Positions 2,714-20,654 of a stretch of DNA of 20,705 nt are shown here, piece by piece. The translations under genes and the position numbers were made by a program. This stretch comes from a virus, in IMG/VR virus record IMGVR_UViG_3300014886_000033, positions 1 through 20,705 of that record; one strand, written 5' to 3'. Under the pieces are notes generated by a model. The model was not told where the DNA came from. It saw only the letters and a program-made list of their open reading frames with translations, and made no database searches. Position 1 is the stretch's first letter, and the number at the start of each line of letters is the position of its first letter.

Positions 2714-2731
2714 AATTCTACGAAAGATTTG

Positions 2732-2737
2732 AAGGAG
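2732..2737 (+). promoter_or_regulatory. Ribosome binding site of the capsid gene
   Basis: AAGGAG lies six bases before ATG 2744. It selects this ATG over an upstream TTG (2729) in the same frame. Confidence 0.7.
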
Positions 2738-2743
2738 AAAGAA

Positions 2744-3589
2744 ATGGGTGAATTAGCTGATAGGTTAAAAGAATACGTCGCTAAGGTGCAGACCCACGAA
2801 CTCAGTGCGTCTGATGATATACGACGACTAACGCAGAAAGCCTATTACAATGCCGTTGTAGCTGGAGCTAAACAAAGAGAATTCATGAGGAAGATATTAC
2901 CTGTTGTCAAAACAAGTTCGCATAGAGTGAGAGTATTCACGTCTGACGCAAATGGATACGCTTCAAAAGGAGCTTATAAAGGAGAAGTTCCCATTTTCCA
3001 TCCTAAATACACAAGCATTGACGCGGTTACCGAAAAGGCTTGGACTTTACCTCTTGCTCCAAAAGAATTAGTTGAGGATGCAGAGTTCGGTTTGATTGAA
3101 AATGAGGTTTCTCTCGCTGGTATGAGATTAGAGAATACTTTGAATCGAGATGCAATTTCCACTTTGATTGACAATGCAGGACACTCGGAAACGTGTGATG
3201 GTGCTTCTCCATTGACAGCGATTCAAAATGCATGTGTGAACGTTTCGGATTCTCAGTTTACCCCAACTTATATGATCACCAATTTAAAATTCCTCTTTAC
3301 TGCGTTTTCAATAACTCAAACTCCTTTCATGACAGAGGGTGGCTCACTCAACATTAGATATATTTCAATTACTTCAAATGGAGACAACAATTGGGGATGG
3401 GAAAACGCAGGAGATGTTGGAGCAGTGGTGTTAGATGCCGAAATGGCAGCATTGATCCTCATGAAAGAGGACATAACCGTGAAAAAATATTCTGATCCTC
3501 TTAATGATTTGCGTGGCGCAATAGTAGAAATGAAATACAAAGTTGTAGTAAGAAAACCTAAAGCTATTTGTATAATTAAACATGATTAG
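2744..3589 (+). CDS. Major capsid protein (HK97 fold)
   Basis: A 281-aa protein placed right after the protease, the standard position for the major capsid protein. Visible traits are a charged helical N-terminus (residues 1-50), a loop with FTSDANGYASKGAYKGEVP typical of the E-loop region, and a spine-helix-like segment (ELVEDAEFGLIENEVSLAGMR). An alpha/beta P-domain end with LRGAIVEMKYKVVVRKP closes the protein and is characteristic of this fold. Its C-terminus is IIKHD. The N-terminal arm is short, so any cleaved delta domain would be small. Start ATG 2744 is supported by its SD. The identity is inferred from position and pattern, not from close sequence identity. Confidence 0.85.
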   Translation: MGELADRLKEYVAKVQTHELSASDDIRRLTQKAYYNAVVAGAKQREFMRKILPVVKTSSHRVRVFTSDANGYASKGAYKGEVPIFHPKYTSIDAVTEKAWTLPLAPKELVEDAEFGLIENEVSLAGMRLENTLNRDAISTLIDNAGHSETCDGASPLTAIQNACVNVSDSQFTPTYMITNLKFLFTAFSITQTPFMTEGGSLNIRYISITSNGDNNWGWENAGDVGAVVLDAEMAALILMKEDITVKKYSDPLNDLRGAIVEMKYKVVVRKPKAICIIKHD

Positions 3590-5279: not shown

Positions 5280-7694
5280 ATGAGCTTGCGAGTAACATTT
5301 CTCGGAGTAAATGCAGAAGCAAAGGGACATTCTTGTATATTGATTGAGTCCTCTAAAGCGAAAGTTCTTTTAGAACCCACTCAGCGAGTCAGGGATATAG
5401 ATGCTGTTATAATTACGGATATAGATAGAGATGAATATAGCGAATGGAAATATTATGCAGACCAAGGTGTTCCGATGTATTCGGTAGCAGCAATAAAGAG
5501 ATGGGCAAAAGATGACGAGCTTCGTGAGCACATTCAAGTGATAAGCAACAAGTTCTCAATTAAAGGTCTCCACATGAATTGGCTAAAAGCTAATGTCGCT
5601 CCTCACGAGCCAGCAGGTGGGATTAGAATTCCAAGTTATGATGTTGATATTATTCCCGAACTCCCACCTTACATTCCCCAAGCAGTTATAAAAGCATTTG
5701 GTTTACCACCCTCTCACATTATAGTTGGAATAGGCTCTTACAAAAAATCGGATCACAAAATATCATTTGAGGATTTCCTTTTACAGCTTGAGAAAACACG
5801 AAGTGGAAAAGAGAAAGGTCTTTTGTCTATTACTCTCACAAATTTCAGGAAAGATTTAAAAGAACACAAAAGTGAAGTCCTTAGAAGATTGAAAGAACGG
5901 TGGGATATACCCATCTTTTGGGCAGAAAAGGATATGACACTTGAATTCTCTAAAAGCGGACAGGTTGAACGAATAAATGGAACTTCTAGTGAATTAGAAA
6001 AGCTTCACCTCAAAGAATTCCTTTCCAAAGGAGTGGATTATGACATTAAACATGTTAAGACAAGGTGGAAAGAATGCATTGCGGATTTGCGATATTTAGC
6101 AAATAGTGCCGTTCCTCGTTTGAAGGCGGGAAAGAAGTGGGGTGAGTGGACACTTGATATGTGCTATAAATATTTTGCTGCTTTGGTGGATGCTCTTCGT
6201 GGTATATATTTTGCACTCGTTCCTCCCACTCAACCTGAGCTATACAAAATAGAGCATCCTAATAAAGATCCTAAGGAAGCACTTAAGACTTCTTTCTGGC
6301 AGACATATTTAAAAGCCAAGAAATACATGAAGTCCAAACCTCCCAAAGACGAAGAAGAATTAAAAGAATGGAATAAGAAGCGAGCAAAACTAATAAGTAC
6401 ATCTGAAGAAACGAAGAGCCTTAAAGTTGGATACCTTTCCAAGGCTAAACCCTACTTACGATTCTTCCTCCCTACTATTCACGAAGATATTGTGAGTGCT
6501 GGATGGGATGAAAAGAAGCTCCTTATCGATGTTAAAGCCGATGGTCTGAGAATCACTCTTTGGAAGTCAGGCGGTAAGGGGTATGTATTTGTAGATCCAG
6601 AAGAACTCAAACAAAAGTCCCCACTAATAAACAAATACGTTCCTCAGATAGCAAAAGAAATTGAGGAGCACTTTCCTGACAACACAGCTCTTGATGGGGA
6701 ACTTTATGCAGCAAAAGGCAATAAAGCTCTACACAGGACTGTCATAAATGGAATTATAAATACTAAACTTCCTCCCGAAAGATTCATACCTTATACTTAT
6801 GCCCTTGCTTTTGACGTCCTTATATACAAAGGCAAGGATGTGCGTGGTAATCCTCTTGAAGAGAGACTGAAGTTGCTTCGTGCCTTCAAATCCACGTCTC
6901 ATATCAAAATAGAAAGAGTATCTAATGTAGTCGTTCCCGGTTACTCTGGATATATAGTCAACGGGAGTAATAAAAACGCAGTAGATAAGGCTATTCATTT
7001 GATAGAAAGGTCAAAACATAATTTGCACGAGGGTGTACAAGAAGGCATAATGGTCAAAACATTAGATCATCCATATCAAACACCCACGAACCACGGATGG
7101 GCAAAGTGTAAGCTGTGGCATGAAGTTGATACTGTGGTGCTGGATAAGAAATTGGTAAAGGGACAAACCGATGTATGGAATTATTATTTGGGTATCGAAA
7201 TACCAGCCGGATATGCTAAGATGATGCTTGATGACACTCAGGCGTATAAACGTGTTCGATGTTTGTATAATGGTCATCTTTATAAAAAGAAAGAGTGTCA
7301 AGATTATTTAGACAGACGAGGTGCTCGATTCTTTATGGAATATGGAAAGTCGGATAATACAAAAATTAAGTGTAGTGTTGGAGACGTTCTCAGAGTGTCC
7401 TCCGAAGAAGTCCTCTATAATGCAAATGAGACTCACCCAGAATATCCGTATTATACGGGATACATAAACAGAGCGATGGAGCCAGTACCAGAAAGAAAGA
7501 CCTCCGATAATTTAGTTGTATTGCACCGTCTTGCGTTACTCGAGCCTCAGCGGATACCATTAGAGGTCTTAGCAAAGTGGAAAGAAAATATGCCTCCAGA
7601 GATCAAGAAGTATTGTGAATATATTAGGTCTTTATCTACCCCGAAACTAATTCAATTTTATAATGCACTGAAGAAGGTTCAAAATGAAGAGTGA
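5280..7694 (+). CDS. Metallo-beta-lactamase-fold / ATP-dependent DNA ligase fusion
   Basis: An 804-aa fusion. Residues 1 to about 225 resemble the MBL nuclease fold: a VTFLG strand, GHSCILIES at 16-24, then III-TDIDRDE at 44-52 where a metal-binding HxHxDH is expected, and a late LLSITLTNF strand. All three expected histidines are replaced by Asp or Glu, so the metal site is altered or lost. Residues about 380-735 form an ATP-dependent DNA ligase. It has motif I KADGLR with the nucleotidyl lysine K419, DGELYA (472-477), FDVLIYKG (511-518), EGIMVK (588-593) and WAKCK (607-611), then an OB-fold-like part. Residues about 250-380 are helical and unassigned. The gene overlaps the phosphoesterase-like gene by 11 bases. 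A role in joining or repairing viral or host DNA ends is inferred. Confidence 0.9.
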   Translation: MSLRVTFLGVNAEAKGHSCILIESSKAKVLLEPTQRVRDIDAVIITDIDRDEYSEWKYYADQGVPMYSVAAIKRWAKDDELREHIQVISNKFSIKGLHMNWLKANVAPHEPAGGIRIPSYDVDIIPELPPYIPQAVIKAFGLPPSHIIVGIGSYKKSDHKISFEDFLLQLEKTRSGKEKGLLSITLTNFRKDLKEHKSEVLRRLKERWDIPIFWAEKDMTLEFSKSGQVERINGTSSELEKLHLKEFLSKGVDYDIKHVKTRWKECIADLRYLANSAVPRLKAGKKWGEWTLDMCYKYFAALVDALRGIYFALVPPTQPELYKIEHPNKDPKEALKTSFWQTYLKAKKYMKSKPPKDEEELKEWNKKRAKLISTSEETKSLKVGYLSKAKPYLRFFLPTIHEDIVSAGWDEKKLLIDVKADGLRITLWKSGGKGYVFVDPEELKQKSPLINKYVPQIAKEIEEHFPDNTALDGELYAAKGNKALHRTVINGIINTKLPPERFIPYTYALAFDVLIYKGKDVRGNPLEERLKLLRAFKSTSHIKIERVSNVVVPGYSGYIVNGSNKNAVDKAIHLIERSKHNLHEGVQEGIMVKTLDHPYQTPTNHGWAKCKLWHEVDTVVLDKKLVKGQTDVWNYYLGIEIPAGYAKMMLDDTQAYKRVRCLYNGHLYKKKECQDYLDRRGARFFMEYGKSDNTKIKCSVGDVLRVSSEEVLYNANETHPEYPYYTGYINRAMEPVPERKTSDNLVVLHRLALLEPQRIPLEVLAKWKENMPPEIKKYCEYIRSLSTPKLIQFYNALKKVQNEE

Positions 7695-9729
7695 ACTTTT
7701 AAACACTCAGAATGTAAATACCTTACTTGAACTGGTAGAGTCAGAACTCAATTATAGACATGCGAAGGGATTGCATATTCCAAATAGAGGAATGTACCTC
7801 CCATCGCCACACGCTAAGCTTATTCACGATTGTCATAAGACAGTAATCCTCAAGGATAGGAAATTTAAGATAGCAGGTGTCCCATTCCTATACTGTGACA
7901 ACAAATATGCTTATGGTGTGTTAGAACTCAAGGAGCCAAAAGAAATTGAGACAGGAGGGCAATTTAAGGCTCTCCAGAAATATCACAGAGTAACCAAGAA
8001 AGAGTTTGAAAATTGGAATTGGTCACTTCCCCTTTACGCTTATTACATTAAAGAAGTCCACAATTTTAAGAAGCCTGTAAGAATTAACCTTCCTCAAGGC
8101 GTACAAAACTTTATTAAGAATCCAGTTCAATATTTAGAAGATAGCGAGTATCCATTTACTGGCAAGCATGAATTATCTCTTCCCCTACAAATAAACTGTC
8201 CTAATTGTGGAAGATGGATATACGTTCCACATTCTCCGATTCCGTCTGATTGTCCTTATTGTGGTTATCAGTTGAAAGAGCGAGAAGAAGAAAAATCACG
8301 AATGGTTCCTCTCCCAAAAGAAGAATACTCTCGAATAGTTAAGGATTATCCTCTCAAACCTTTACCTAAGAAATATTATAAAGACCAGAGAGGAGGAGTG
8401 GCTTGGTGTTTTGCCTCTCCCCGAACAAAAGTCCTTACGGAAGGCGGATGGAAACCTTGGAATAAGATTTATCCGGGCGAGAAAGTCCTGACTCATAAGG
8501 GTAGGTTCATGCGAGTCACACGAAAGGATGTGTTTGAAGGCATTTATGATTGGATTAAAGTTCATCTTCAGTGTGATAATATAAAGGACCTTAAATACGA
8601 TATTCGAGTGACTGAAAATCACCCCTTTCTCACAACAGAAGGTTGGAGGGAGGCAAAAGACCTAAAGGTTGGCGACAAGATTATCTCAAAAACACCTAAG
8701 CGTTGTCTTAATTGTCGTGTTCCGATTCCTCTTTCATGGAATGCGAAGACAGATTTTATGTTTTGTAGTGATGATTGTGCACGAAACTATGAATGGACAG
8801 AAGAGAGTTTACACACTGAATACATTGATAAACAAATTTATGATAATCCTCTTGTTGATGTCACAGTCACAGTTGTGAAAATAGAAAGAATTAAGATTCC
8901 AAAAGACTCTACTGTGTGGACACAGACTCATGCTTGTTCTTTAGAGGTAGAGGAAGACCATTCGTACATGACTCCTTTGGGATTCTCTCACAACTCACAA
9001 TGGCACATTAGAGGCATTGAACCAGAAGACAAAGAGGCATTTGATAAAGGCAAGATATCATTTGAGGAAATGATACTACATCACAGTTTGCATCAAGATT
9101 TAAGATGGAAGCTTGATGGTGTTTCAACTCTCCCACAATGCACTATAACAGAAAGTGATATGCAGTCTTATGTGAGAGGAATGTTAGGACAACTCAACCC
9201 TGAGCAAAAGGGTCCAGCTAATGTTCAGAAGGTTAAAGTTATTCCTAAAGTTGAGATTGCTAAACCTACAATGCCAAAGTCCAAAATAAAGGAATTCCTT
9301 ATAGACAAGGAAGGAGCTAAGCTTATCAATAAGATTATAATTCACGAAACTTCTTTCTTCATTTCTCCTGGGGAAGTTGGGAGCTTGCCGTACACTTGGG
9401 CTTATTTGGGAACAATTTGGACAGGAAAGGTAGAGACGGGCGTTGAGAGAGGAGATTATCATGAGCTCTTCTTTTATTCTGATAAAGATTTACCTGAACC
9501 TAACAGAAAATTCTTTGACGGACGATTTATACTGAGGGCATTTAGAGGCGAAGCAGCACGAGGGGGAAAGACATGGTGGTTGTGGAAGTCTACCAAAAAT
9601 CCATATCCACAGAACCCTTGGTGTTATTGTGATCAAGGTGAGCATGAAGTTTTGCCTCTCGATGAGATTAAATACTGGGGTCATGAAGATTATCCTGAGT
9701 GGAAAACACGAAAAGATGAATGTGAATAA
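7684..9729 (+). CDS. ASCH-like / zinc ribbon / LigD-type 3'-phosphoesterase-like protein with intein
   Basis: The precursor is 681 aa; removing the intein (residues 242-437) leaves 485 aa. Residues about 30-150 resemble an ASCH/PUA-like fold (GVPFLYCDNKYAYGVLEL, then PLYAYYIKEV). Residues 172-193 are a zinc ribbon (CPNC and CPYC). After splicing, QWHIRG and, after an insertion of about 25 residues, SLHQDLR would supply the H-x(n)-HxDxR signature of the 3'-phosphoesterase domain of bacterial LigD. Here these are H441, H470, D472 and R474. Later blocks (ISPGEVGS, GVERGDYHELFF, RFILRAFRG, KTWWLWKS) also fit that fold. Known family members remove 3'-phosphate or ribonucleotide ends before ligation. 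The ATG at 7684 follows AAGG and overlaps the ligase stop. The phosphoesterase call is moderate to good; the ASCH call is weaker. Confidence 0.78.
   Translation: MKSELLNTQNVNTLLELVESELNYRHAKGLHIPNRGMYLPSPHAKLIHDCHKTVILKDRKFKIAGVPFLYCDNKYAYGVLELKEPKEIETGGQFKALQKYHRVTKKEFENWNWSLPLYAYYIKEVHNFKKPVRINLPQGVQNFIKNPVQYLEDSEYPFTGKHELSLPLQINCPNCGRWIYVPHSPIPSDCPYCGYQLKEREEEKSRMVPLPKEEYSRIVKDYPLKPLPKKYYKDQRGGVAWCFASPRTKVLTEGGWKPWNKIYPGEKVLTHKGRFMRVTRKDVFEGIYDWIKVHLQCDNIKDLKYDIRVTENHPFLTTEGWREAKDLKVGDKIISKTPKRCLNCRVPIPLSWNAKTDFMFCSDDCARNYEWTEESLHTEYIDKQIYDNPLVDVTVTVVKIERIKIPKDSTVWTQTHACSLEVEEDHSYMTPLGFSHNSQWHIRGIEPEDKEAFDKGKISFEEMILHHSLHQDLRWKLDGVSTLPQCTITESDMQSYVRGMLGQLNPEQKGPANVQKVKVIPKVEIAKPTMPKSKIKEFLIDKEGAKLINKIIIHETSFFISPGEVGSLPYTWAYLGTIWTGKVETGVERGDYHELFFYSDKDLPEPNRKFFDGRFILRAFRGEAARGGKTWWLWKSTKNPYPQNPWCYCDQGEHEVLPLDEIKYWGHEDYPEWKTRKDECE
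8407..8994 (+). mobile_element. Intein (mini, Hint fold, zinc-finger-like insertion)
   Basis: A 196-aa in-frame protein-splicing element. It begins with Cys (TGT at 8407; CFASPRTKVLTEGGW, block A) and carries block B TENHPFLTTEGW. It ends with block F (LEVEEDHSYMTPLGF) and block G His-Asn (AAC at 8992-8994), followed by Ser as the +1 extein nucleophile. All splicing residues are present, so it should be active. It is too short for a LAGLIDADG endonuclease. Between blocks B and F it carries a CxxC...CxxxC module (CLNC and CSDDC) that looks like a zinc finger or a remnant of an HNH-type insert. It sits three residues before the first presumed active-site His of the host domain. Confidence 0.92.
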
Positions 9730-9758: not shown

Positions 9759-10694
9759 ATGGGTTGGTTATCTGATTATGAATACAGGAAGAAAGTAACT
9801 ATCTCCGGTTCGAGTGGAGCCGGAGAAAATTATCAAGTTAAGTTAAAAATAGGTTCGTCATCTGGTGGAGACTTCCATTTAGAGGGACACTGCGAGGACT
9901 TCCCTAATGACATCCGCTTTACAGATAACGATGGCACTACTCCTCTTGATTATTGGATAGAAGATCCTTCTGAAGACCCTATTACGGTTTGGGTAGAGGT
10001 TAACGATAACTTAGATAATAACGTGGATATTTACGTGTATTATGGTAAGAGTGGAGAAGTTTCAGCAAGCGATGCGGAAGCGACATTTATAAGAGTAATA
10101 AATGGAAATCAACCAGTTAAAGGTAGCTGGCATTTCGATGAAAACTCTGGAATCATCGCTGAAGACACCTCTGGCAATGACTATGATGGAAGTATTCACG
10201 GAGCAGATTGGACAACAGGAAAATTTGGCTCTGCTTTGAGTTTTAACGGAAGCAGTGATTACGTGGATTGCGAGAATGTAGGAACTTCGATTGATAAAAC
10301 TTACAGTGTAAGTCTGTGGTTTAAGGTTGATAGTCTGAGCCATGAGATGCAGATTTTTTCAGGTGGTGGTACTTCAGGTGATAATCGGTATCCAGATATT
10401 GTATTGTGGACTAGCGGAAAGATTGGATTTAGAATAAATGACGCAGATCCGGGAGCTTGTTCTGCTGAAGGACTTATTTCATCAAATACTTGGTATCATG
10501 TTGTAGGGGTAGTTGAAAGTGATGGAAAAACCACTCGCCTTTATGTGAATGGAGACGAAAAAGCAACTCATGTCCATACATCTGATGCTGTATTTTACGA
10601 TGATGTTAATATAGGAAGAAGGGGAAATGATACTAACTATTTTGATGGTATCATTGATGAAGTTTTTGTCTTTAATAGGGCTTTGAGTGCTTAA
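9759..10694 (+). CDS. Fibre/adhesin N-terminal part: DUF2341 + LamG (ends at in-frame TAA)
   Basis: A 311-aa product if the TAA is respected. Residues 1-110 match the DUF2341 pattern (YRKKVTI, FPNDIRFTDNDG, LDYWIE, ITVWVEV, IYVYYG). Residues about 125-311 match a LamG/concanavalin-like domain (GSWHFDE, DTSGNDYDG, FGSALSFNGSSDYVDC, YSVSLWFKV, IDEVFVFNRALSA). Such domains bind carbohydrate or form adhesin modules on tail fibres. The stop interrupts the final LamG motif, where homologues normally read ALSAEEI followed by a helix, and the same frame then stays open to 14282. The start lacks an obvious SD after a 29-base gap. It is best read as the front of one large gene. Confidence 0.8.
   Translation: MGWLSDYEYRKKVTISGSSGAGENYQVKLKIGSSSGGDFHLEGHCEDFPNDIRFTDNDGTTPLDYWIEDPSEDPITVWVEVNDNLDNNVDIYVYYGKSGEVSASDAEATFIRVINGNQPVKGSWHFDENSGIIAEDTSGNDYDGSIHGADWTTGKFGSALSFNGSSDYVDCENVGTSIDKTYSVSLWFKVDSLSHEMQIFSGGGTSGDNRYPDIVLWTSGKIGFRINDADPGACSAEGLISSNTWYHVVGVVESDGKTTRLYVNGDEKATHVHTSDAVFYDDVNIGRRGNDTNYFDGIIDEVFVFNRALSA
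9765..10088 (+). repeat. Direct repeat copy 1 (DUF2341 unit)
   Basis: This pairs with 10938-11261 at a constant offset of 1173 bases without gaps. The strongest shared stretch includes GGTTCGTCATCTGGTGGAGA. Conservation at the DNA level suggests a fairly recent internal duplication. Confidence 0.8.
10692..10694 (+). other. In-frame TAA splitting the fibre gene
   Basis: The codon sits where LamG domains usually have Glu (ALSA-stop-EISDLYNNYG). The reading frame continues unbroken on both sides, and a GAA to TAA change would explain it. It may be a nonsense mutation, a programmed readthrough site, or a sequencing or assembly error. Confidence 0.85.
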
Positions 10695-10874
10695 GAAATT
10701 TCCGATTTATATAACAACTACGGTTATACAACAATAAACTATCCAGGCAGAGTTTTAATTCGCAAATATGTTTCTCCTGAGCCGACATTCAGTAGTGCTG
10801 GAAGTGAAGAAACCAGCTTTTCTTGTACAGACATAATTGGATTACAAGACAGTTCCTCCAGAAGCGGACCGATT

Positions 10875-13800
10875 GTGGGAAGTTGTACTGACATTTTAGA
10901 TTCCACATCTTCCTCTTCTCTTCTAAAGATAGCTCCCTGGCTTTCGGGTTTTTCTTATAGGAAACGATTAATTATTAACGGTTCAAATGGAGCGGGCACA
11001 GGATACCAAATTAAGCTTAAGATTGGTTCGTCATCTGGTGGAGATTTTCATCTTAATGGTCACTGTTCAGATTTCCCCAATGACATACGTTTCACAAAAG
11101 ACGATGGTCTTACTCTCTTGAAATACTGGATAGAAGATCCTTCGGAAGATCCAATTACTGTATGGGTAAAGATTGATGATAACTTAGACAGCAATAAAGA
11201 AATTTACTGCTACTATGGTAGTTCTATTGCCTCCTCTTTAAGCGACGGAGAGGAGACTTTTGAGTTCTTCGATGATTTTCTTGGAACACCATATCAAGTG
11301 TCATTTGCAAATATCTCTACGAATACTTACGGGAATGGCATCTATCCCCCGCAATATCCACAAGCAATTTACGTTCCTTCACAAAATAAGACATATATTA
11401 TATTTCAAACTCGTTATGTTGGGCGACACATAATTGAGTATGATCATTCAACAAAGACATTCCAGAATGAGACAGATATTGGGGGACACACACTGTGGGG
11501 AGAAAATCAACCCGGTCATGGCGCTCCTGCGTTAGGCATTGATGGCGATGGATATTTATATGTATTTTATGGTTCACATGGTGGTCCTCAGTATTATAAA
11601 AAATCTACAAATCCTTACGACATAACGTCATGGGGAAGTGAACAAACTCTTGTAAGCGCAGCGACCTACCCTCAAGTTTTTTGGACAGATAACAAACTGT
11701 GGGTATTTTATAGAAATGGTCCCCAAGAATGGGTATATAAGACTACATCGGATGGCGGCTCAACATGGAGTAATGAAGTAGAAATCACTGATTTTGATTC
11801 TCAACCTAATTTCTGGGGTGTTTATGCAAGGACAATGAAAGCACCCAATGGTGACATTCATATTGTGTGGTTATGGAGAAATGATGCAAATGATTATTTT
11901 AATCTTTATTATGCTTACTATGATATTTCAGAAGGGAAATGGAAGAAACGAGATGGGACTGAATTGACATTACCTATAAGCGAAAGTGAGGCTGATAAAG
12001 TATTTGACGGGAGTCATACATGGATATGGGGTCTGGATATTGATGAGAACAATGAACCGTATATTTTCTGGGCATATTCAGGAGATAATAAATTGAAATT
12101 AACAAAGTGGAAAAATAGTGCGTGGCATACCTACAATATAACTGACTATCCTTTTTACAAGAGTGGCTCCTTTGGCGCCTTGAAAGTCGATGACTCATCT
12201 AATCTACGAGTGATAGCGGACAGTTCTGACCACAAAACTGCTAAATTGTATAAAAGTACAGATGGTGGTGAAACATGGCAATTCGTAAAAATAGTCTCCG
12301 AAGAGTTACCAGGCATGGAGTATGGACCGGGGAGTGGTGCAGGATTCCAGTCTGTATTTAATGCAAACAGTGAATTAGAATTTCTTTTGGGACCTGGAGA
12401 CAATCCACAGGACAATGGTATTTGTGGTGCGTGGGGACAAGATAGTGACTTTACACATAATGAATATATTTATGATCTTTCAAATAAGTGGAACATAAAT
12501 AAAAATCCTGAAGTCGAAAATGGGATATTGACATGTACAGGCGAAGACAATGAGGCGGTACACTCAAAAACCACATTTTTATACAAAGCATTAAAGGTAA
12601 GAGCAAAAGTAACACACGGTGGAAGTGATGATGCAGGCAATGTGGGATTCGCAACAGATCTCAATGGAGGTAATTTAAACGCAGAACGATTTTGGGTCGT
12701 TACTCCCACACGAACAAAAGTGTGTAGCGGTAATGCAGAAAACCAAGAATGTACTGACATAACAAGCTATAATGCTGCTTGGCATATATGGGAAGTATTA
12801 TGGAAAGAAGGAGAGGCAAAGTTTATAGTTGATGACAACTTAGAGGCAACTCATTCTACTTATGTCTGCGAACAAGCAATACCTATAATGTTTCAGAGTT
12901 ATCGCCCAGATGCAACAACAGAGGTTGATTGGGTTTTTGTTCGGAAGTACGTCTCCCCAGAACCTTCTTTCAGCGGCGCTCAAGCCGAGGAGGGACCCGT
13001 GTTCACTTGTGGAGACACGCTTGCAAATTCAGTTGCTTCTTCTGTTCATAGAGACATTTTTCCGACGTGCTTAGAAACTCTGAGTTGTCAAGATACTCTT
13101 TTCTCTCTTCTTTCTTCGATCTGTCGTTCTCAAGACTCATTGGGATTGATGGATTCAAGTGTCTCTTTAGCTGTTCTTTTACTCAATGCAATTGACTCAA
13201 TAGACGTTAGTGATGGTTGTACTCTTTCTCTCTCGTTTTCATCATCTTGTCTGGACGTGTTACACGCCATCGATAGTGCCTCGTATCCATTGCCAAATGT
13301 GGTTAGTTGTTTAGATAGCTTAGGGACTCAAGACTCCTTTTCGTCACTCCTTTCAATGCTATGTCAAAGCAAGGATAATATTGGAGGAGCAGATGGTGAA
13401 ACTTCTCAACTTTCAGTTGAACGAGCATTACTCGATATTCTTGCTTTCCAAGATACCTCTTCTTATCTTGCGGGTATTATTGCTTCAGCTTCCGATGTTC
13501 TTAATGTGCAAGATTTGAATAGTATTCGTTTAACATTCTCTTGTTCAAGCATAGACATTATTAAGAATGTAGATAGTGGAGGAATTAATGTTACATTCCA
13601 CTTGAGTGGAGATGACATACTTAAAGGAGCGGATTATGTCTCTGGCAACCTTCAAGTTCTTCTTGATTCCTTATCAGTCTTTAAGAATACAGACCAAAGT
13701 GCTTCTTCATTACTGGGTTTCATTCTCAGATCAGCTTCTGACGTACTCGATATGTATGATTTGAATACAGCCACGCTTCAGATATCCTCTTCCTCAATAG

Positions 13801-14282
13801 ATCTCTTCAGGACAGAAGATAATTCCTCTATTAACATCACGTTCCATTTAAACAGTGCAGACGTCTTTAAAAATTCTGATTCAGCAATTCTCAATTTACA
13901 AGCCCTTCTTAGTGCGTTAGAAGCTCTTGAGATTAGCGATAGTAGTGCGTCTTCTCTGTTTGCTGAGATATTAGCTTCCGCTTCTGATTTACTCTCCGCA
14001 TCTGACTACAATGAAATCCGTTTGGAGTTTCTTAATTCTTCTATCGACGTGATTAAGTCTGAAGATGGTGTTACTCCCAATTTTACTTTGCATTTGAACA
14101 GTTCGGATATTCTTCATGGATTAGATTCTGTTACAGCTAAACTCGAAGCCATTCTACATGCCATGTCCGAATTTAAGAGTACAGACGAATCTTCGACACG
14201 CAAGAAAGTTGTTCTTGTTACTCCCGTTAAGATATTTAAAGCTCAACAAAAAATCTTAATCTTTAAAGCAGAGAACATTTAA
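10875..14282 (+). CDS. Fibre/adhesin C-terminal part: DUF2341, sialidase-like, LamG-like, 20-residue repeats
   Basis: The frame is continuous with the upstream fibre gene (open from 10695). The only initiation candidate near the front is GTG 10875, without a convincing SD. If that start is used, the product is 1135 aa. Domains in order: DUF2341 (10938-11261); a beta-propeller-like region with Asp boxes SDGGSTW (about 11747-11767) and TDGGETW (about 12258-12278), as in sialidases and BNR proteins; a LamG/jelly-roll-like segment (about 12510-12940); an RKYVSPEP linker (12942); then at least 20 tandem repeats with a core of about 20 residues up to 14222, closing with a basic, hydrophobic tail. 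It is likely a tail-tip or fibre protein that binds or trims host surface glycans. Several N-x-S/T sequons occur in the repeats. Confidence 0.8.
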   Translation: MGSCTDILDSTSSSSLLKIAPWLSGFSYRKRLIINGSNGAGTGYQIKLKIGSSSGGDFHLNGHCSDFPNDIRFTKDDGLTLLKYWIEDPSEDPITVWVKIDDNLDSNKEIYCYYGSSIASSLSDGEETFEFFDDFLGTPYQVSFANISTNTYGNGIYPPQYPQAIYVPSQNKTYIIFQTRYVGRHIIEYDHSTKTFQNETDIGGHTLWGENQPGHGAPALGIDGDGYLYVFYGSHGGPQYYKKSTNPYDITSWGSEQTLVSAATYPQVFWTDNKLWVFYRNGPQEWVYKTTSDGGSTWSNEVEITDFDSQPNFWGVYARTMKAPNGDIHIVWLWRNDANDYFNLYYAYYDISEGKWKKRDGTELTLPISESEADKVFDGSHTWIWGLDIDENNEPYIFWAYSGDNKLKLTKWKNSAWHTYNITDYPFYKSGSFGALKVDDSSNLRVIADSSDHKTAKLYKSTDGGETWQFVKIVSEELPGMEYGPGSGAGFQSVFNANSELEFLLGPGDNPQDNGICGAWGQDSDFTHNEYIYDLSNKWNINKNPEVENGILTCTGEDNEAVHSKTTFLYKALKVRAKVTHGGSDDAGNVGFATDLNGGNLNAERFWVVTPTRTKVCSGNAENQECTDITSYNAAWHIWEVLWKEGEAKFIVDDNLEATHSTYVCEQAIPIMFQSYRPDATTEVDWVFVRKYVSPEPSFSGAQAEEGPVFTCGDTLANSVASSVHRDIFPTCLETLSCQDTLFSLLSSICRSQDSLGLMDSSVSLAVLLLNAIDSIDVSDGCTLSLSFSSSCLDVLHAIDSASYPLPNVVSCLDSLGTQDSFSSLLSMLCQSKDNIGGADGETSQLSVERALLDILAFQDTSSYLAGIIASASDVLNVQDLNSIRLTFSCSSIDIIKNVDSGGINVTFHLSGDDILKGADYVSGNLQVLLDSLSVFKNTDQSASSLLGFILRSASDVLDMYDLNTATLQISSSSIDLFRTEDNSSINITFHLNSADVFKNSDSAILNLQALLSALEALEISDSSASSLFAEILASASDLLSASDYNEIRLEFLNSSIDVIKSEDGVTPNFTLHLNSSDILHGLDSVTAKLEAILHAMSEFKSTDESSTRKKVVLVTPVKIFKAQQKILIFKAENI
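10938..11261 (+). repeat. Direct repeat copy 2 (DUF2341 unit)
   Basis: Second copy of the DUF2341-coding unit; see copy 1. Differences are mostly third-position and conservative changes (for example FPNDIRFTKDDG against FPNDIRFTDNDG). Confidence 0.8.
13008..14222 (+). repeat. Tandem 20-residue (60-bp) repeats in the fibre C-terminus
   Basis: The unit is roughly x-x-D-x-L-x-x-x-D-S followed by about ten residues ending in a Leu/Ser-rich stretch. Eight exact 60-bp units occupy 13008-13487, most starting with Cys, Ser, Ala or Leu before the Asp. From 13488 a 246-bp super-unit (20+20+20+22 residues) repeats three times. Two orphan units (CTDII at 10824 and CTDIL at 10884) follow the first linker copy. 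The repeats are degenerate at DNA level and protein-coding. Confidence 0.9.
13488..14225 (+). repeat. Higher-order 246-bp repeat, three copies
   Basis: Copies begin at 13488, 13734 and 13980 (ASDVLNVQD, ASDVLDMYD, ASDLLSASD), exactly 246 bases apart. Within each copy the four sub-units keep their own identity, for example the second sub-unit begins SID and contains NVTFHL, NITFHL or NFTLHL. Confidence 0.9.
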
Positions 14283-15393: not shown

Positions 15394-16176
15394 ATGCAAT
15401 TTTCAATAATAGTTGCAACAAATCGTGGACCCGAACTTCTAAAATATCTATTTGTTTCTGCACATCCGGAGAGTGAACTCATAATAGTTGACTCTCACTA
15501 TAATGAAAAAACAAAAGATTTCCTCTCTCGTCAAGAGGGGTACAGACAAATAGTCTACTCTCCACCTGAGCATTCACCCTTTAAGTGGCATAGAGACTTT
15601 TCTCAGTCCCTCAATACAGCACTGTGTTTTGCTGAGCACGAATATATTGTACGTGCAGATGATTACATAGAATTTAAGGAGGACTTTTTTGACGTTGCAG
15701 AGATGGATATCAAGAGTTATCCTCAAAAGACTCTTATAATAGGACAGAAAGCACAAGAATACAACAAGGAAGAGAAATTCATTGATTACATGTCACAAAA
15801 AGGGATAGGTGGAGAATTTAGGTATGTAAACATTGAGAACCCAGCATTCACATTCTCCTTTGGAGTAGCACCACTTCAGTTATACCTTGACCTTAATGGT
15901 TATGATGAAAGGTACGATTCTGGTTGGGGTTTTGAAGACAGAGACTTTCTTCATAGAGCACTAAAAGCTGGCTACGTTGCAATGCTTGACAAGCTTCTTA
16001 TGGGATATGGTCATGCTCATAAGCCAGCTTGGGAGACAATTTCAATGCCTCATATAATTTATGAGGTAACAAAGACAGAAATAGAGAGTGGCAAAGTTTG
16101 GGCTTATAATCCTTATAAACTCAAGGACAGACGGGAACAGAAACTGCAGGAGAAAGAAAAATGGATAGTAAGATAA
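15394..16176 (+). CDS. Glycosyltransferase, GT-A fold (family 2-like)
   Basis: A 260-aa enzyme expected to transfer a sugar from a nucleotide-sugar donor. The N-terminus has the Rossmann-type start FSIIVATNRGPELLKYLF. An acidic metal/donor motif RADD occurs at 87-90, and the acceptor-side block GYDERYDSGWGFEDRDFLHRAL (about 169-190) is typical of GT2 enzymes (GWGxED). There is no membrane segment, so it is probably cytosolic. Its 3' end overlaps the radical SAM gene by 16 bases. Together with the second glycosyltransferase it suggests modification of virion fibres, host surface glycans or DNA; the target cannot be read from sequence. Confidence 0.85.
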   Translation: MQFSIIVATNRGPELLKYLFVSAHPESELIIVDSHYNEKTKDFLSRQEGYRQIVYSPPEHSPFKWHRDFSQSLNTALCFAEHEYIVRADDYIEFKEDFFDVAEMDIKSYPQKTLIIGQKAQEYNKEEKFIDYMSQKGIGGEFRYVNIENPAFTFSFGVAPLQLYLDLNGYDERYDSGWGFEDRDFLHRALKAGYVAMLDKLLMGYGHAHKPAWETISMPHIIYEVTKTEIESGKVWAYNPYKLKDRREQKLQEKEKWIVR

Positions 16177-17099
16177 ACATGATTCAGATACAGACCACGA
16201 GTATTTGTTCCGGGAGGTGTATCATTTGTCCTTACAAAGACAGTTGGCTACGAAAGGCTCATGGCTATATGAGTGATGAAGATTACGTTCACGTCTTAGA
16301 GGAGGTCAAGTCCTGTCTTGGTGATTACAAAGAAAAGCTTCCACTTTATTTGATGAACGATCCATTTGCAGACAAGAAAATAATTGAGCGAATGGAGTTA
16401 GCTTATCAGTATTTTCCTAAATGCAAATTAGAGTTGTCCACCAATGGTCTACTCCTCACAGAAAAACTATCCAAGAGAATAGTGGAAACTGTGACTCATT
16501 ATAATGGTGAGGATACGTTTGAACTTTGGATTTCTTTTCATGGAGCAAGTAAGAAAACATGGGAGTTCCTCAACAATTTACCCGGTAAATTTGAAAGAGT
16601 CCTCAAGAGCATCGTTACATATCTCAAGATAAACAATGGTCAGCTTAGAACAGTCATTAACTCAGCGGGAGGAGCGTCTCGTGATGGTTCTATGTTCTTT
16701 TATTCCCAGAGTGCTTGGAAACATTTCCTAAACTCTATATTTCAAACTTATAATCTTCCATTAGAGAACGTTCATCTTCGATACTATACCTTTCATAACA
16801 GAGCTGGAAACGTAAGGCTGTGCAATTGGGATGGAACAGAGTACTATCGAGAAATAGGTCCCGAGTATCCCTTTGATTGTTGGCGATTTAGGAGTGGCAT
16901 TCACATTCTTTACAATTTAGACGTGATAGCCTGTTGCATGGATTGGAACAGAGAAACAGTCTTTGGAAATCTCAAAACCCAAACTCTAAAGGAAATATGG
17001 GAGGGTGAGAAACGACGTACCTTTGTTGATATGGCATCGGGTAGAAAACCCTCTCCTAAAGACTTTATATGTAAGAGGTGCATGTCGCCAGGCGGGTGA
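16161..17099 (+). CDS. Radical SAM enzyme with SPASM-like C-terminus
   Basis: A 312-aa protein. CSGRCIIC (C16, C20, C23) is the CxxxCxxC cluster-binding motif of radical SAM enzymes. NDPFADKK and STNGLLL fit the following strand motifs of the barrel. The C-terminal part has a Cys series (DCWRF, ACCMDW, CKRC) and the phrase FGNLKTQTLKEIWEG. Both are typical of SPASM/Twitch auxiliary-cluster domains, which act on peptides, proteins or sugars. ATG 16161 follows AGGAG and overlaps the upstream glycosyltransferase. Lying between two glycosyltransferases, it may modify a sugar or a glycosylated protein. The family is firm; the substrate is unknown. Confidence 0.9.
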   Translation: MDSKINMIQIQTTSICSGRCIICPYKDSWLRKAHGYMSDEDYVHVLEEVKSCLGDYKEKLPLYLMNDPFADKKIIERMELAYQYFPKCKLELSTNGLLLTEKLSKRIVETVTHYNGEDTFELWISFHGASKKTWEFLNNLPGKFERVLKSIVTYLKINNGQLRTVINSAGGASRDGSMFFYSQSAWKHFLNSIFQTYNLPLENVHLRYYTFHNRAGNVRLCNWDGTEYYREIGPEYPFDCWRFRSGIHILYNLDVIACCMDWNRETVFGNLKTQTLKEIWEGEKRRTFVDMASGRKPSPKDFICKRCMSPGG

Positions 17100-17100
17100 G
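17094..17100 (+). promoter_or_regulatory. Ribosome binding site overlapping the radical SAM stop
   Basis: GGGTGAG contains the TGA stop of the upstream gene and lies four bases before ATG 17105. It selects that start over the in-frame ATG 17078. Confidence 0.65.
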
Positions 17101-17104
17101 TATT

Positions 17105-18007
17105 ATGGATAACGTAACAGCGATTGTGAAAACCTTTATGCGCCCTGAAAAATTCGAGTTTTGTTTGAGAAGCTTAGTGTCTGCCGGACTTAAGAAAATA
17201 ATTGTTTCTTTTGATGGTCCTGAAGAGTACCTCGAAAGGCATAGAAGAGTAATAGGCAAGTATCAAAGAAACGTGACTATTCGTTTCTTAGAACTTCCGT
17301 TTAATGTAGGACTCGCAGCCGCAAGGAACAGAATGATAGAGAGAGTGAACACAGATTTCGTCTTGATGATCGACGATGATAATTACGTTCCTCTTCAAGT
17401 CTTAGAGATGGTACATGGACTTTTACAGCTCCCCGAAGATGTGGGAGGAGTAGCTATGGGATGGCTGCCAGCTTTTAACCCTCTTCCACAGATGGATGCT
17501 TGGGACTTCGAGATTGTAAATAAAATACTCTTCAAGACGTGGCGAAGTGATAAACAACGTGCGATTATTAATGGTAATGCTTATATGTTTCCTTTTGATT
17601 TTATTCCTAATCAAGTTCTCTTCAGACGAAAGCTCTTTAATGATGTGCAGTGGGATGAACATTATATCATAAGCAGAGAGCATGAGGATTTCTATCTAAC
17701 ATGCAAGAAAGAAACAGATTGGAAGTTTGGGATATGTACGTCCATTTACTCCGTACATGACCCAGGTGGGAACAAAGAGTACATACGTGAGTATCGAGCA
17801 GGAAAGGAATGTGATAAATCTGCTGAATATTTCCTCAAGAAGTGGAACTTAAAAGGCATTGCTCCTCAAAGATATAGCGATGATTATACTTCTTTGTTTT
17901 ATGACGCTCCTTGGCAAGTAAGACGAAACCTCGATAAGAATAGATATATAAGATGGAAGTTGGAGACGAATCGAGCTTTGCCTGATGATGTCTTCCAAAC
18001 TCGTTAG
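17105..18007 (+). CDS. Glycosyltransferase family 2-like, GT-A fold
   Basis: A 300-aa protein. VTAIVKTFMRPEKFEFCLRS is the usual GT2 opening; NVGLAAARN (67-75) and the donor/metal motif MIDDDNYV (DDD at 90-92) follow. EHEDF (about residue 200) matches the ED base motif on the acceptor side. There is no membrane anchor. The start at ATG 17105 rests on the SD; the upstream ATG at 17078 would add nine residues read from the tail of the radical SAM gene. It differs clearly from the glycosyltransferase at 15394, so the two are not a recent duplication and probably add different sugars or act in sequence. Confidence 0.87.
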   Translation: MDNVTAIVKTFMRPEKFEFCLRSLVSAGLKKIIVSFDGPEEYLERHRRVIGKYQRNVTIRFLELPFNVGLAAARNRMIERVNTDFVLMIDDDNYVPLQVLEMVHGLLQLPEDVGGVAMGWLPAFNPLPQMDAWDFEIVNKILFKTWRSDKQRAIINGNAYMFPFDFIPNQVLFRRKLFNDVQWDEHYIISREHEDFYLTCKKETDWKFGICTSIYSVHDPGGNKEYIREYRAGKECDKSAEYFLKKWNLKGIAPQRYSDDYTSLFYDAPWQVRRNLDKNRYIRWKLETNRALPDDVFQTR

Positions 18008-18025
18008 ATGATTAGAATATGTGAT

Positions 18026-18030
18026 GGAGG
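18026..18030 (+). promoter_or_regulatory. Ribosome binding site of the sulfatase-superfamily gene
   Basis: GGAGG lies six bases before ATG 18037, in a 29-base gap. Confidence 0.6.
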
Positions 18031-18036
18031 AAGTGT

Positions 18037-18696
18037 ATGGTGGAACGTTTAGAATTGAAACATGGAAACTTTTATATACTGTTAGACGCCTGTCGTTACG
18101 ATGTATTTGCATCTATAATTCACGAATATCTTGATGGAAAATTAGAGGAACGTGATAGCAGAGCTTGTAACACTCCCCAATTTTATCAAAATTCAAACAT
18201 AAAGGAATTTAAGGTAGCTTCATTTAATCCGACTGCCATGCTTCAAAACCATCCCGACTTCGTGTTGCTGCCTTCCCTTTATTGTGAAGATAATCTTGAT
18301 GACTTCATCTCTCGGTATAGAGATCGTGAAGTCCTTCATCTTATACCACCCCACATGCCTCCACAAGAAAGAAAGTACTGGGAAATATGGTTCGATACAG
18401 TAGAGGATTGTATAGAGGAATCTGAGAAAGGTAAGCCAAAAACGCTTGGACATTTTGGTATAGAGGGATATTTTTATTCTCGATTGGGCAGAGAAAAAGC
18501 TTTAATGATCTACGAAAGTAATCTTCGTTTTGCATTAAGAGCCATTACTAAACGAGTAGACAAGCTTCCACGACCTTTGATATTAATAGCGGATCATGGT
18601 GAACTCTTTGGAGAATTTGGATGCTGGGGACACTCAGAGGACTGCCCAGAAGGAAGGAATATCCTGTCGAGAGTTCCACATTTTAAAGTGAAATGA
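18037..18696 (+). CDS. Alkaline phosphatase/sulfatase-superfamily protein (short)
   Basis: A 219-aa protein that keeps the metal-binding skeleton of the superfamily. It has ILLDACRYDVF (D17 first metal ligand), ACNTPQF (C44-P47, where the Thr, Ser or Cys nucleophile sits), PPHMPP (H106), IADHGELFGE (D186, H187) and GHSED (H199). Typical members exceed 350 aa, so this is a minimal version, similar in motif style to sulfatase-like proteins seen in archaea. The CxPxR formylglycine motif of true sulfatases is absent, so it may act on phosphate, phosphonate or phosphoglycerol/sulfo groups by a Thr or Cys nucleophile. There is no signal peptide. Its stop overlaps the DUF2061 start (ATGA). Activity is inferred. 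Confidence 0.75.
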   Translation: MVERLELKHGNFYILLDACRYDVFASIIHEYLDGKLEERDSRACNTPQFYQNSNIKEFKVASFNPTAMLQNHPDFVLLPSLYCEDNLDDFISRYRDREVLHLIPPHMPPQERKYWEIWFDTVEDCIEESEKGKPKTLGHFGIEGYFYSRLGREKALMIYESNLRFALRAITKRVDKLPRPLILIADHGELFGEFGCWGHSEDCPEGRNILSRVPHFKVK

Positions 18697-18962
18697 ACGA
18701 AGGATTAATTCGCAGTTGGACTAAATCCTTTACTTGGCGAGTATTAGGAATACTATTGTTGCTTTGTTTTTCGTATCTCTTTACTCATGATGTTGAGACA
18801 GCAAGCATGATTGCCCTTCTCTTTCACGGAGTTCGAGTTCCCTTGTATTTCATACATGAACAGGCATGGGAGCGAGTGCGCCATATTAGTTATTTATACT
18901 TCTTTTTTGCTATGGTGTTGTTACTTACTTCCTTTATATTTGTTTGGAAGGTGGGAGCATGA
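18693..18962 (+). CDS. DUF2061-like small membrane protein
   Basis: An 89-aa protein. The opening RSWTKSFTWRVLGILLLLCFSYLFTHD followed by an A-M-I-A-L-L segment and YFIHEQAWERV fits the DUF2061 pattern (R-x-x-x-K-x-hxWR-hh ... hhxHExxW-x-R). Two to three membrane segments are visible (about 14-32, 36-55, 67-86); the last lies beyond the usual domain. DUF2061 has no proven function. In this window it is coupled by ATGA overlaps on both sides, with a sulfatase-superfamily gene before it and a CysD-like gene after it. That context suggests a role connected with sulfate or sulfo-group handling. Confidence 0.8.
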   Translation: MNEGLIRSWTKSFTWRVLGILLLLCFSYLFTHDVETASMIALLFHGVRVPLYFIHEQAWERVRHISYLYFFFAMVLLLTSFIFVWKVGA

Positions 18963-19741
18963 GTCATCTTGAAGAGAAAAGCATATACGTGATACGAGAG
19001 GCTTATAGTAAGTTTGATCGTATAGCTGCATTATGGAGTACTGGCAAGGACAGTACCGTATTGTTATGGCTTTGTCGAAAAGCCTTCTTTGACGAAACAC
19101 CCTTTCCAGTGATACACATAGACACGGGTTTTAAGTTTAGTGAAATGTACTCATTCAGAGATAGAATTGCAAGGGAATGGGAACTGGATTTGATAATAAC
19201 CAAGAACGAAGAGGCATTAAAGAGTGGAATGAATCCAAGGTGTGGAAGATTTAAGTGTTGTAATACACTAAAGACTGAAACACTTAAGAGGTGTATAAAG
19301 GAATATAAATTTGATGCCATTCTTTTGGGAATACGACGCGATGAGCATGGAGTAAGAAATAAAGAGAGGTTTTTCTCACCAAGAGATGCGAACTTTAATT
19401 GGGACATTTGGGAACAACCTCTTGAAGCTTGGGATATTTATACAATAGACGAGGAAGCTGATCACTACCGAGTTCATCCCATCTTACACTGGACTGAAAT
19501 TGACGTCTGGAGATATATCAAGAAGGAGGGATTGCCAGTTAATCCTCTTTATTTCGCCAAGGATCATAAGCGTTTTCGTTCTTTAGGTTGTAAGCCTTGT
19601 ACATCCCCTATCGATTCGGATGCTAAGACTATTGATGAAATTATCAAGGAAGTAGAGAATAGTAATACACGAGAACGATATGGTAGAGTCCAAGATAAAG
19701 AGAATTTAATGGAACGTCTACGTGTACTTGGTTACATGTAA
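18959..19741 (+). CDS. CysD/PAPS-reductase-family PP-loop enzyme
   Basis: A 260-aa protein matching ATP sulfurylase small subunit CysD along most of its length. Matches are LEEKSIYVIREAYSKFD, the PP-loop STGKDST (27-33), IHIDTGFKFSEMYSFRD, ILLGIRRDE, WTEIDVWRYI and FRSLGC near 206-211, then TIDEIIKEVENSNTRERYGR. It also has a Cys pair (C100, C101) and CKPC (C211, C214), the CC...CxxC arrangement that holds a [4Fe-4S] cluster in APS reductases; ordinary CysD lacks these. It could thus activate sulfate, reduce APS/PAPS, or use its PP-loop for another adenylylation. No CysN or CysC partner lies in the window. ATG 18959 follows AAGGTGG and overlaps the upstream stop. Confidence 0.85.
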   Translation: MSHLEEKSIYVIREAYSKFDRIAALWSTGKDSTVLLWLCRKAFFDETPFPVIHIDTGFKFSEMYSFRDRIAREWELDLIITKNEEALKSGMNPRCGRFKCCNTLKTETLKRCIKEYKFDAILLGIRRDEHGVRNKERFFSPRDANFNWDIWEQPLEAWDIYTIDEEADHYRVHPILHWTEIDVWRYIKKEGLPVNPLYFAKDHKRFRSLGCKPCTSPIDSDAKTIDEIIKEVENSNTRERYGRVQDKENLMERLRVLGYM

Positions 19742-19742
19742 A

Positions 19743-20654
19743 ATGTTAGATAAAGAAGAAATAAAAAAATTAACAAAGAAAGGTATGGAGAAGGCTTATC
19801 TCCCAGTGCCTTCTCATGGTGGGCTCAAGACAGCAAGGTTCACCTTAGAGGATGTTCAGCAATGCTTTAAGCAACCTGCTCTTCTCCGAGATCTTGTATA
19901 TTTGGTTGGAGGAGTAGCGGTTCACGGCAAGGGTAATGATGTGGACTTAGTAATACGTGGAGATGATTTATCAGAGCCTCAACGCGAAGCCCTATTGTTC
20001 CGTCTCTATCGAGCGTTTGGTGATTACTTCAATATTCCTTACGATATGACGCCCAAACATCTACACGTAACCTTTAACAATTATGGTCCTTTTACAGATC
20101 ACGTTCTCTTATATCACTTAGCAATTGTTCCTTCTGAAGACCGAAGTATCCACGAAATGGAAGCTATGAAGTCCGTGTCCTCCAATGGTGAATGGATAGT
20201 TTATGGTTATGGTTCAATAGACGCAATTGACCTCGAAGGTGATGAGATAACCATTGATGCTCTCAAAGGCATGTGGGAGGAAATGCAAAAGACCCCGAAG
20301 AAGTACTGGAATGTCATGAATGAACATGGTGGTGTACAAGTAGGAGAAATTCTCCCAGAGTGGAATGGGCTCAAAACTCATGTTGACGAAAAGGGGTTCT
20401 TTGTGATAGTGAAGCTCCGTAAGGATATAGACGCAGCACGAAGGATATGGGAAGCGATTCATTCTGACAATGAAGCAGAACGTATCAAGAGTTTCTCAAT
20501 TCATATTGAGTATCCTGGAGGTGTGCAAAATTGTACAGAAAAGGTCTGTGACAAAAACAGATGCTGGCGTAAGATAACCAAAGCAAGATTCCTTGAGTTG
20601 AGTTTCACAAGAAATCCTGCTAATCCGTTATGTATTTTTAAACCCGCGTTCTAA
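19743..20654 (+). CDS. Nucleotidyltransferase-like / prohead-protease-like fusion
   Basis: A 303-aa protein with two parts. Residues about 45-130 show the Pol-beta-type nucleotidyltransferase signature LVGGVAVHGKGNDVDLVI (GG at 56-57, DxD at 66-68). Residues about 150-303 resemble an XkdF/HK97-type prohead protease: WIVYGYGSIDAIDLEGDEIT, H195 (VMNEHGGVQVGEI), S252 (IKSFSIHI) and LELSFTRNPANP. A short Cys-rich insert (about 264-274) interrupts the latter. A separate prohead protease already lies at 2282, so this is a second, modified copy of the fold. ATG 19743 starts just after the upstream stop; GTG 19722 is an alternative. Third catalytic residues of both domains are not certain, so activity is unproven. 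Confidence 0.72.
   Translation: MLDKEEIKKLTKKGMEKAYLPVPSHGGLKTARFTLEDVQQCFKQPALLRDLVYLVGGVAVHGKGNDVDLVIRGDDLSEPQREALLFRLYRAFGDYFNIPYDMTPKHLHVTFNNYGPFTDHVLLYHLAIVPSEDRSIHEMEAMKSVSSNGEWIVYGYGSIDAIDLEGDEITIDALKGMWEEMQKTPKKYWNVMNEHGGVQVGEILPEWNGLKTHVDEKGFFVIVKLRKDIDAARRIWEAIHSDNEAERIKSFSIHIEYPGGVQNCTEKVCDKNRCWRKITKARFLELSFTRNPANPLCIFKPAF

Follow-up and report, generated by a model that had tools for sequence, protein, structure and literature searches.

The DNA analysed here, henceforth the window, is the whole of the IMG/VR record IMGVR_UViG_3300014886_000033, a linear fragment of 20,705 bases. The feature of interest is the reading frame of a fibre protein, opening with ATG 9759, in which a listing of stop codons returned only TAA 10692 and the terminal TAA 14280. 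The frame 9759-14282 holds 1506 sense codons, in agreement with the first-pass annotation, which had described some 1507 codons open except for TAA 10692-10694. That annotation had placed its feature at 10695-10874, which is indeed the stretch between the stop and a downstream GTG; the feature proper is the codon 10692-10694 itself, inside 9759-14282. It had also located the stop where LamG domains read ALSAEEI, and translation bears this out: the last residues before TAA are ...FVFNRALSA, and the in-frame text then resumes EISDLYNNYG. The parts of the frame are as follows.

9759-10691, plus strand: 5′ part of the fibre gene, 311 residues before the stop.
Residues ~50-112 of this part: DUF2341 module 1 (Pfam DUF2341, 1.4e-14).
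Residues 163-311 of this part: LamG/ConA-like lectin module (Laminin_G_3, 3.1e-28, profile positions 1-147 of 151).
10692-10694, plus strand: in-frame TAA; a sense codon stands in this column in every homologous LamG copy examined.
10695-10874, plus strand: remainder of the LamG end, EISDLYNNYGYTTINYPGRVLIRKYVSPEP, followed by linker; conserved and in the same frame, it reaches from the stop to the first possible restart.
10875-10877, plus strand: GTG, the first possible restart codon; locus L047 conserves it as a valine codon within its open reading frame.
10947-11270, plus strand: DUF2341 module 2 (Pfam, 4.7e-19; dN/dS 0.057 against L047).
11271-13000, plus strand: variable BNR (sialidase-like propeller) module (Pfam BNR_4, 8.6e-28) and a second ConA-like/linker segment.
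13050-14282, plus strand: conserved C-terminal repeat region common to all relatives, with the end motif VKIFKAQ and the terminal TAA.

The Laminin_G_3 match ends at residue 311, the very last before the stop. In an AlphaFold model of the 311-residue part the jelly-roll strands are kept to residue 305, and in the model of an intact relative (L052) a helix, residues 323-331, comes after the last of these strands. As the stop column aligns with residue 324 of that relative, the short product is predicted to lack the helix while keeping the jelly-roll strands. A fold search with a LamG relative returned generic ConA-like jelly rolls (an arabinanase domain, CBM40, laminin LG and similar), in agreement with the Pfam match; the literature on readthrough and on DUF2341/LamG yielded nothing specific. 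The C-terminal region is likely to be the part that attaches to the virion or oligomerises. Inspection by eye of 13050-14279 reveals degenerate SSSIDIIKNVDS-like repeats, and the end motif is found in all fibres of the group.

To which virus does this gene belong? The large terminase subunit (TerL) of the window has relatives at 82-98% amino acid identity, including contigs of 80,678, 71,922 and 81,823 bp, and in three of the relatives (G002, G004 and G005) it is 97-98% identical over the aligned parts. The genes around the fibre are collinear with those of the TerL-relative contigs. The Ekchuahviridae are head-tailed viruses of ANME-1 ('Ca. Methanophagales'), with the complete genomes GBV302 (80.6 kb; accession OP880253) and GBV301 (71.8 kb) (PMC9894754); the paper describing these viruses mentions neither fibres nor stop codons (PMC9894754). 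The virus of the window is probably a head-tailed virus of the ekchuahvirus type, with ANME-1 methane-eating archaea as its probable host. As for the Caudoviricetes core of TerL, portal and HK97-fold MCP, the TerL C-terminal domain of the window scores above the Pfam cut-off and a Phage_portal match (E 2e-8) lies below it. In an annotated phage collection, TerL matched only distant Thermus and Tunturiibacter phages, and the 311-residue fibre part matched nothing. Three further genes of the window touch on this kinship.

2282-2713: protease-like gene, judged by eye, preceding the putative major capsid protein (MCP) gene.
2729-3589: putative MCP gene, assigned by gene order only.
19722-20654: Peptidase_S78 prohead-protease-like gene, a single S78 match at the contig end.

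Ekchuahviruses have a pair of MCP genes, with a separate maturation protease for each (PMC9894754). The S78 gene together with the protease-like gene would fit such double sets; the contig ends before any second MCP gene could follow the former.

The first-pass annotation had suggested a comparison with related viruses, and this comparison strongly supports a single gene. The fibre with two DUF2341 modules is one uninterrupted open reading frame in G002 (1393 aa), G004 (1491 aa) and G005 (1383 aa), as it is in L049 (1471 aa), all four with the same C-terminal repeats. The fibre of G001 is a single-module one, 1136 aa long; that of G003, with 541 aa, consists of LamG only and reads ALSAEEI straight through the stop column. 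Three ekchuahvirus-like contigs, IMGVR_UViG_3300021495_000002 (80,678 bp), 3300033156_000439 (81,823 bp) and 3300021492_000046 (20,186 bp), have the same fibre neighbourhood as the window, and their fibres share with it the MGWLS start, the two DUF2341 modules and the conserved C-terminal repeats, at 79-86% amino acid identity in module 1 and ~80-84% in the C-terminus. Unlike the window, they keep an uninterrupted frame of 1383-1491 aa and carry other binding modules in place of LamG. Indeed, the module between the two DUF2341s differs from virus to virus, LamG being found there only in the window. The comparison shows that in this virus group DUF2341 and the C-terminal parts are conserved while the modules between them, lectin-like or propeller, are swapped. 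This is relevant to the way in which viruses of uncultured methane-oxidising archaea recognise their hosts.

The LamG module can be followed further afield. Among the loci fetched, about 40 LamG alignments from viral contigs and 9 from genome contigs span the column; all of them have a sense codon there, and seven loci (L052, L053, L055, L056, L057, L070 and L071) combine it with the same EI/VSDLYNNYGY...VLVRK junction. No part of the module is more conserved than the stretch that follows the stop, EISDLYNNYGYTT..GKVLVRKY, which is intact in the window; in close homologues the best-conserved stretch, EI/VSDLYNNYGYTT..GKVLVRKY, likewise comes directly after the column. Archaeal and bacterial DUF2341-LamG surface or adhesin proteins, such as those at the Aenigmatarchaeota MAG loci L071 and L072, end their LamG domain as the window does and share the EISDLYNNYGYTT..GKVLVRKY junction, differing from it in having a sense codon where the window has its stop. 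The same DNA at or just after the stop was not found in other viral contigs, nor did searches confirm any close relative of the window's own LamG module; because no contig with the same module was found, in collections from which near-identical records may be missing, the comparison at this column is one between homologues and not between near-identical alleles.

What lies beyond the stop behaves as coding sequence. Its 1195 codons are open where base composition would lead one to expect ~83 stops (log10 P(open) ~ -37), which identifies the frame as coding. Against six relatives, a comparison in which many other dS values were saturated, dN/dS is 0.12-0.19 in the C-terminal region, at 77-85% amino acid identity, and falls to 0.06 in DUF2341 module 2. 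When changes in the C-terminal region were polarised, 47 nonsynonymous and 61 synonymous ones fell on the window's own branch (p ~1e-10 against a neutral nonsynonymous fraction of 0.73), a ratio not different from that on the sister branch of L047 (16 to 30; p 0.37). Had the changes on the window branch been neutral, ~3.7 further stops would have been expected, and none is seen. The stretch from stop to GTG is too short to be tested separately; linker plus DUF2341 gives 7 nonsynonymous to 8 synonymous changes (p 0.036). Purifying selection thus still acts on the downstream sequence along the branch of the window, and for this reason the stop is very young, or an error; continuing constraint is also what some readthrough, or a restart of translation, would leave behind.

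A restart would have to use GTG 10875. The first-pass annotation called this a weak start lacking a Shine-Dalgarno (SD) sequence; it is indeed the first usable start, and its pairing with the anti-SD sequence (-3.2 kcal/mol) is the median of all ATG, GTG and TTG codons of the window. An SD is equally missing at ATG 9759, where the fibre itself starts (0.8 kcal/mol), and the fibre starts of relatives are not preceded by any visible GGAGG-type SD, so that the missing SD is weak evidence. One may imagine that the stop split the gene into two working ones: DUF2341-LamG as a short protein, and a fibre of 1135 aa restarted at the GTG and consisting of DUF2341, BNR and C-terminus. Such a fibre would have the domain layout, and almost the length, of the natural single-module fibre of G001, and the 311-residue partner keeps its jelly-roll strands in the model; the SD-less start at 9759 and the constraint downstream also speak for a split. 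Yet GTG 10875, with its median SD, lies 180 nt past the stop and is a valine codon conserved inside the frame of L047, the closest relative in this comparison; those 180 nt, which a split would leave untranslated, keep the consensus protein sequence. We regard the split as very unlikely. A related scenario, in which the stop is real and tolerated, leaving a free lectin and a restarted single-module fibre and thus providing a one-step passage from two-module to one-module adhesins, is very unlikely; if true, it would be a route to adhesins such as that of G001.

Readthrough of TAA at a low rate, which had been put forward as a means of making short and long adhesins, would explain why the 1195-codon frame stays open and constrained. 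It finds no positive support elsewhere. A programmed event would be recognised by a stop conserved in relatives and by stimulatory features, be it the 3′ context, an RNA structure or a suppressor tRNA; here the stop is absent from all relatives examined, no RNA structure beyond chance follows it (fold z 0.44), and a scan of the window and of relatives, among them three contigs of 72-82 kb covered almost completely, returned not a single tRNA gene, hence no suppressor. Furthermore, TAA is the commonest terminator, ending 12 of the 20 tabulated open reading frames of the window, both parts of the fibre among them. We infer that no recoding device operates at the stop, and hold programmed readthrough to be highly improbable. 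A change of the genetic code was rejected as well. Reassignment of TAA to an amino acid, in the virus or its host, would account for this single open frame only, when TAA is the commonest terminator of the window and closes the fibre gene itself, when no tRNA gene was found in the window or the scanned relatives, and when mapping relatives' open reading frames onto the window uncovered no other TAA within a gene; it is scarcely credible.

The account that we consider very probable is this: 9759-14282 is one modular tail-fibre (adhesin) gene, and its TAA is a single non-programmed nonsense change at the end of the LamG module, either a very recent mutation or an error in the consensus base. As far as comparison can show, the gene descends from a single uninterrupted one, its relatives are intact, its downstream frame is kept, and only one in-frame stop cuts it. 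Among the options first listed for this locus, those of one gene with a nonsense change and of a base error both fit, and that of readthrough is unsupported. The evidence points to a recently broken copy or a wrong consensus base rather than to a switch built into the gene. When relatives' open reading frames are mapped onto the whole window, TAA 10692 is the only stop to fall inside a gene, all other hits preceding a true start or following a true stop, and the contig is therefore not of generally poor quality. A word of caution to annotators follows: two genes would be reported here where one exists, and a claim of readthrough would not hold.

Nonsense alleles of tail-fibre genes are known in phages. 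As in those, a receptor-binding gene of the window is cut by one in-frame stop, with the difference that the present case is known from one metagenomic sequence. If the stop is real, translation would end after DUF2341 and the lectin jelly roll, giving a product of 311 aa. Missing from it would be the helix that closes the LamG domain, DUF2341 module 2, the BNR propeller and the conserved C-terminus. As the latter presumably attaches the protein to the virion, the virus would have little or none of this fibre. This loss might be tolerated: some 20 kb downstream, G002 and G004 each have another open reading frame with DUF2341, of 1693 and 1725 aa respectively.

Other interruptions occur in the contigs compared. 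A homologue of the window's 7684-9729 gene has a frameshift by a one-base deletion (L029, around 8253), and the LamG module of another DUF2341 protein is frame-broken in L054 (around 5700) relative to L053 and L055, showing that isolated breaks do occur in contigs of this environment. The protein encoded by 7684-9729 itself contains a Hint/intein-like stretch (PT-HINT at the cut-off, Intein_splicing below it), and its homologue in L035 has ~1 kb extra near residue 568. In G005 (L037:10580-11599), a DNA ligase homologue is broken after residue 608 by an in-frame insert of 340 codons with a weak Intein_splicing match (E 3e-6, below cut-off), an insert that the ligase of the window does not have. 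In relatives again (L037:2953-3786, L038, L039 and L040), ~0.8 kb splits TerL after about residue 169, and residues 104 onward match again downstream; this might be an intein, an intron or a partial duplication, and TerL is intact in the window. Finally, right after its structural genes (15394-19741), the window encodes two glycosyltransferases, a radical SAM/SPASM protein and a PAPS reductase.
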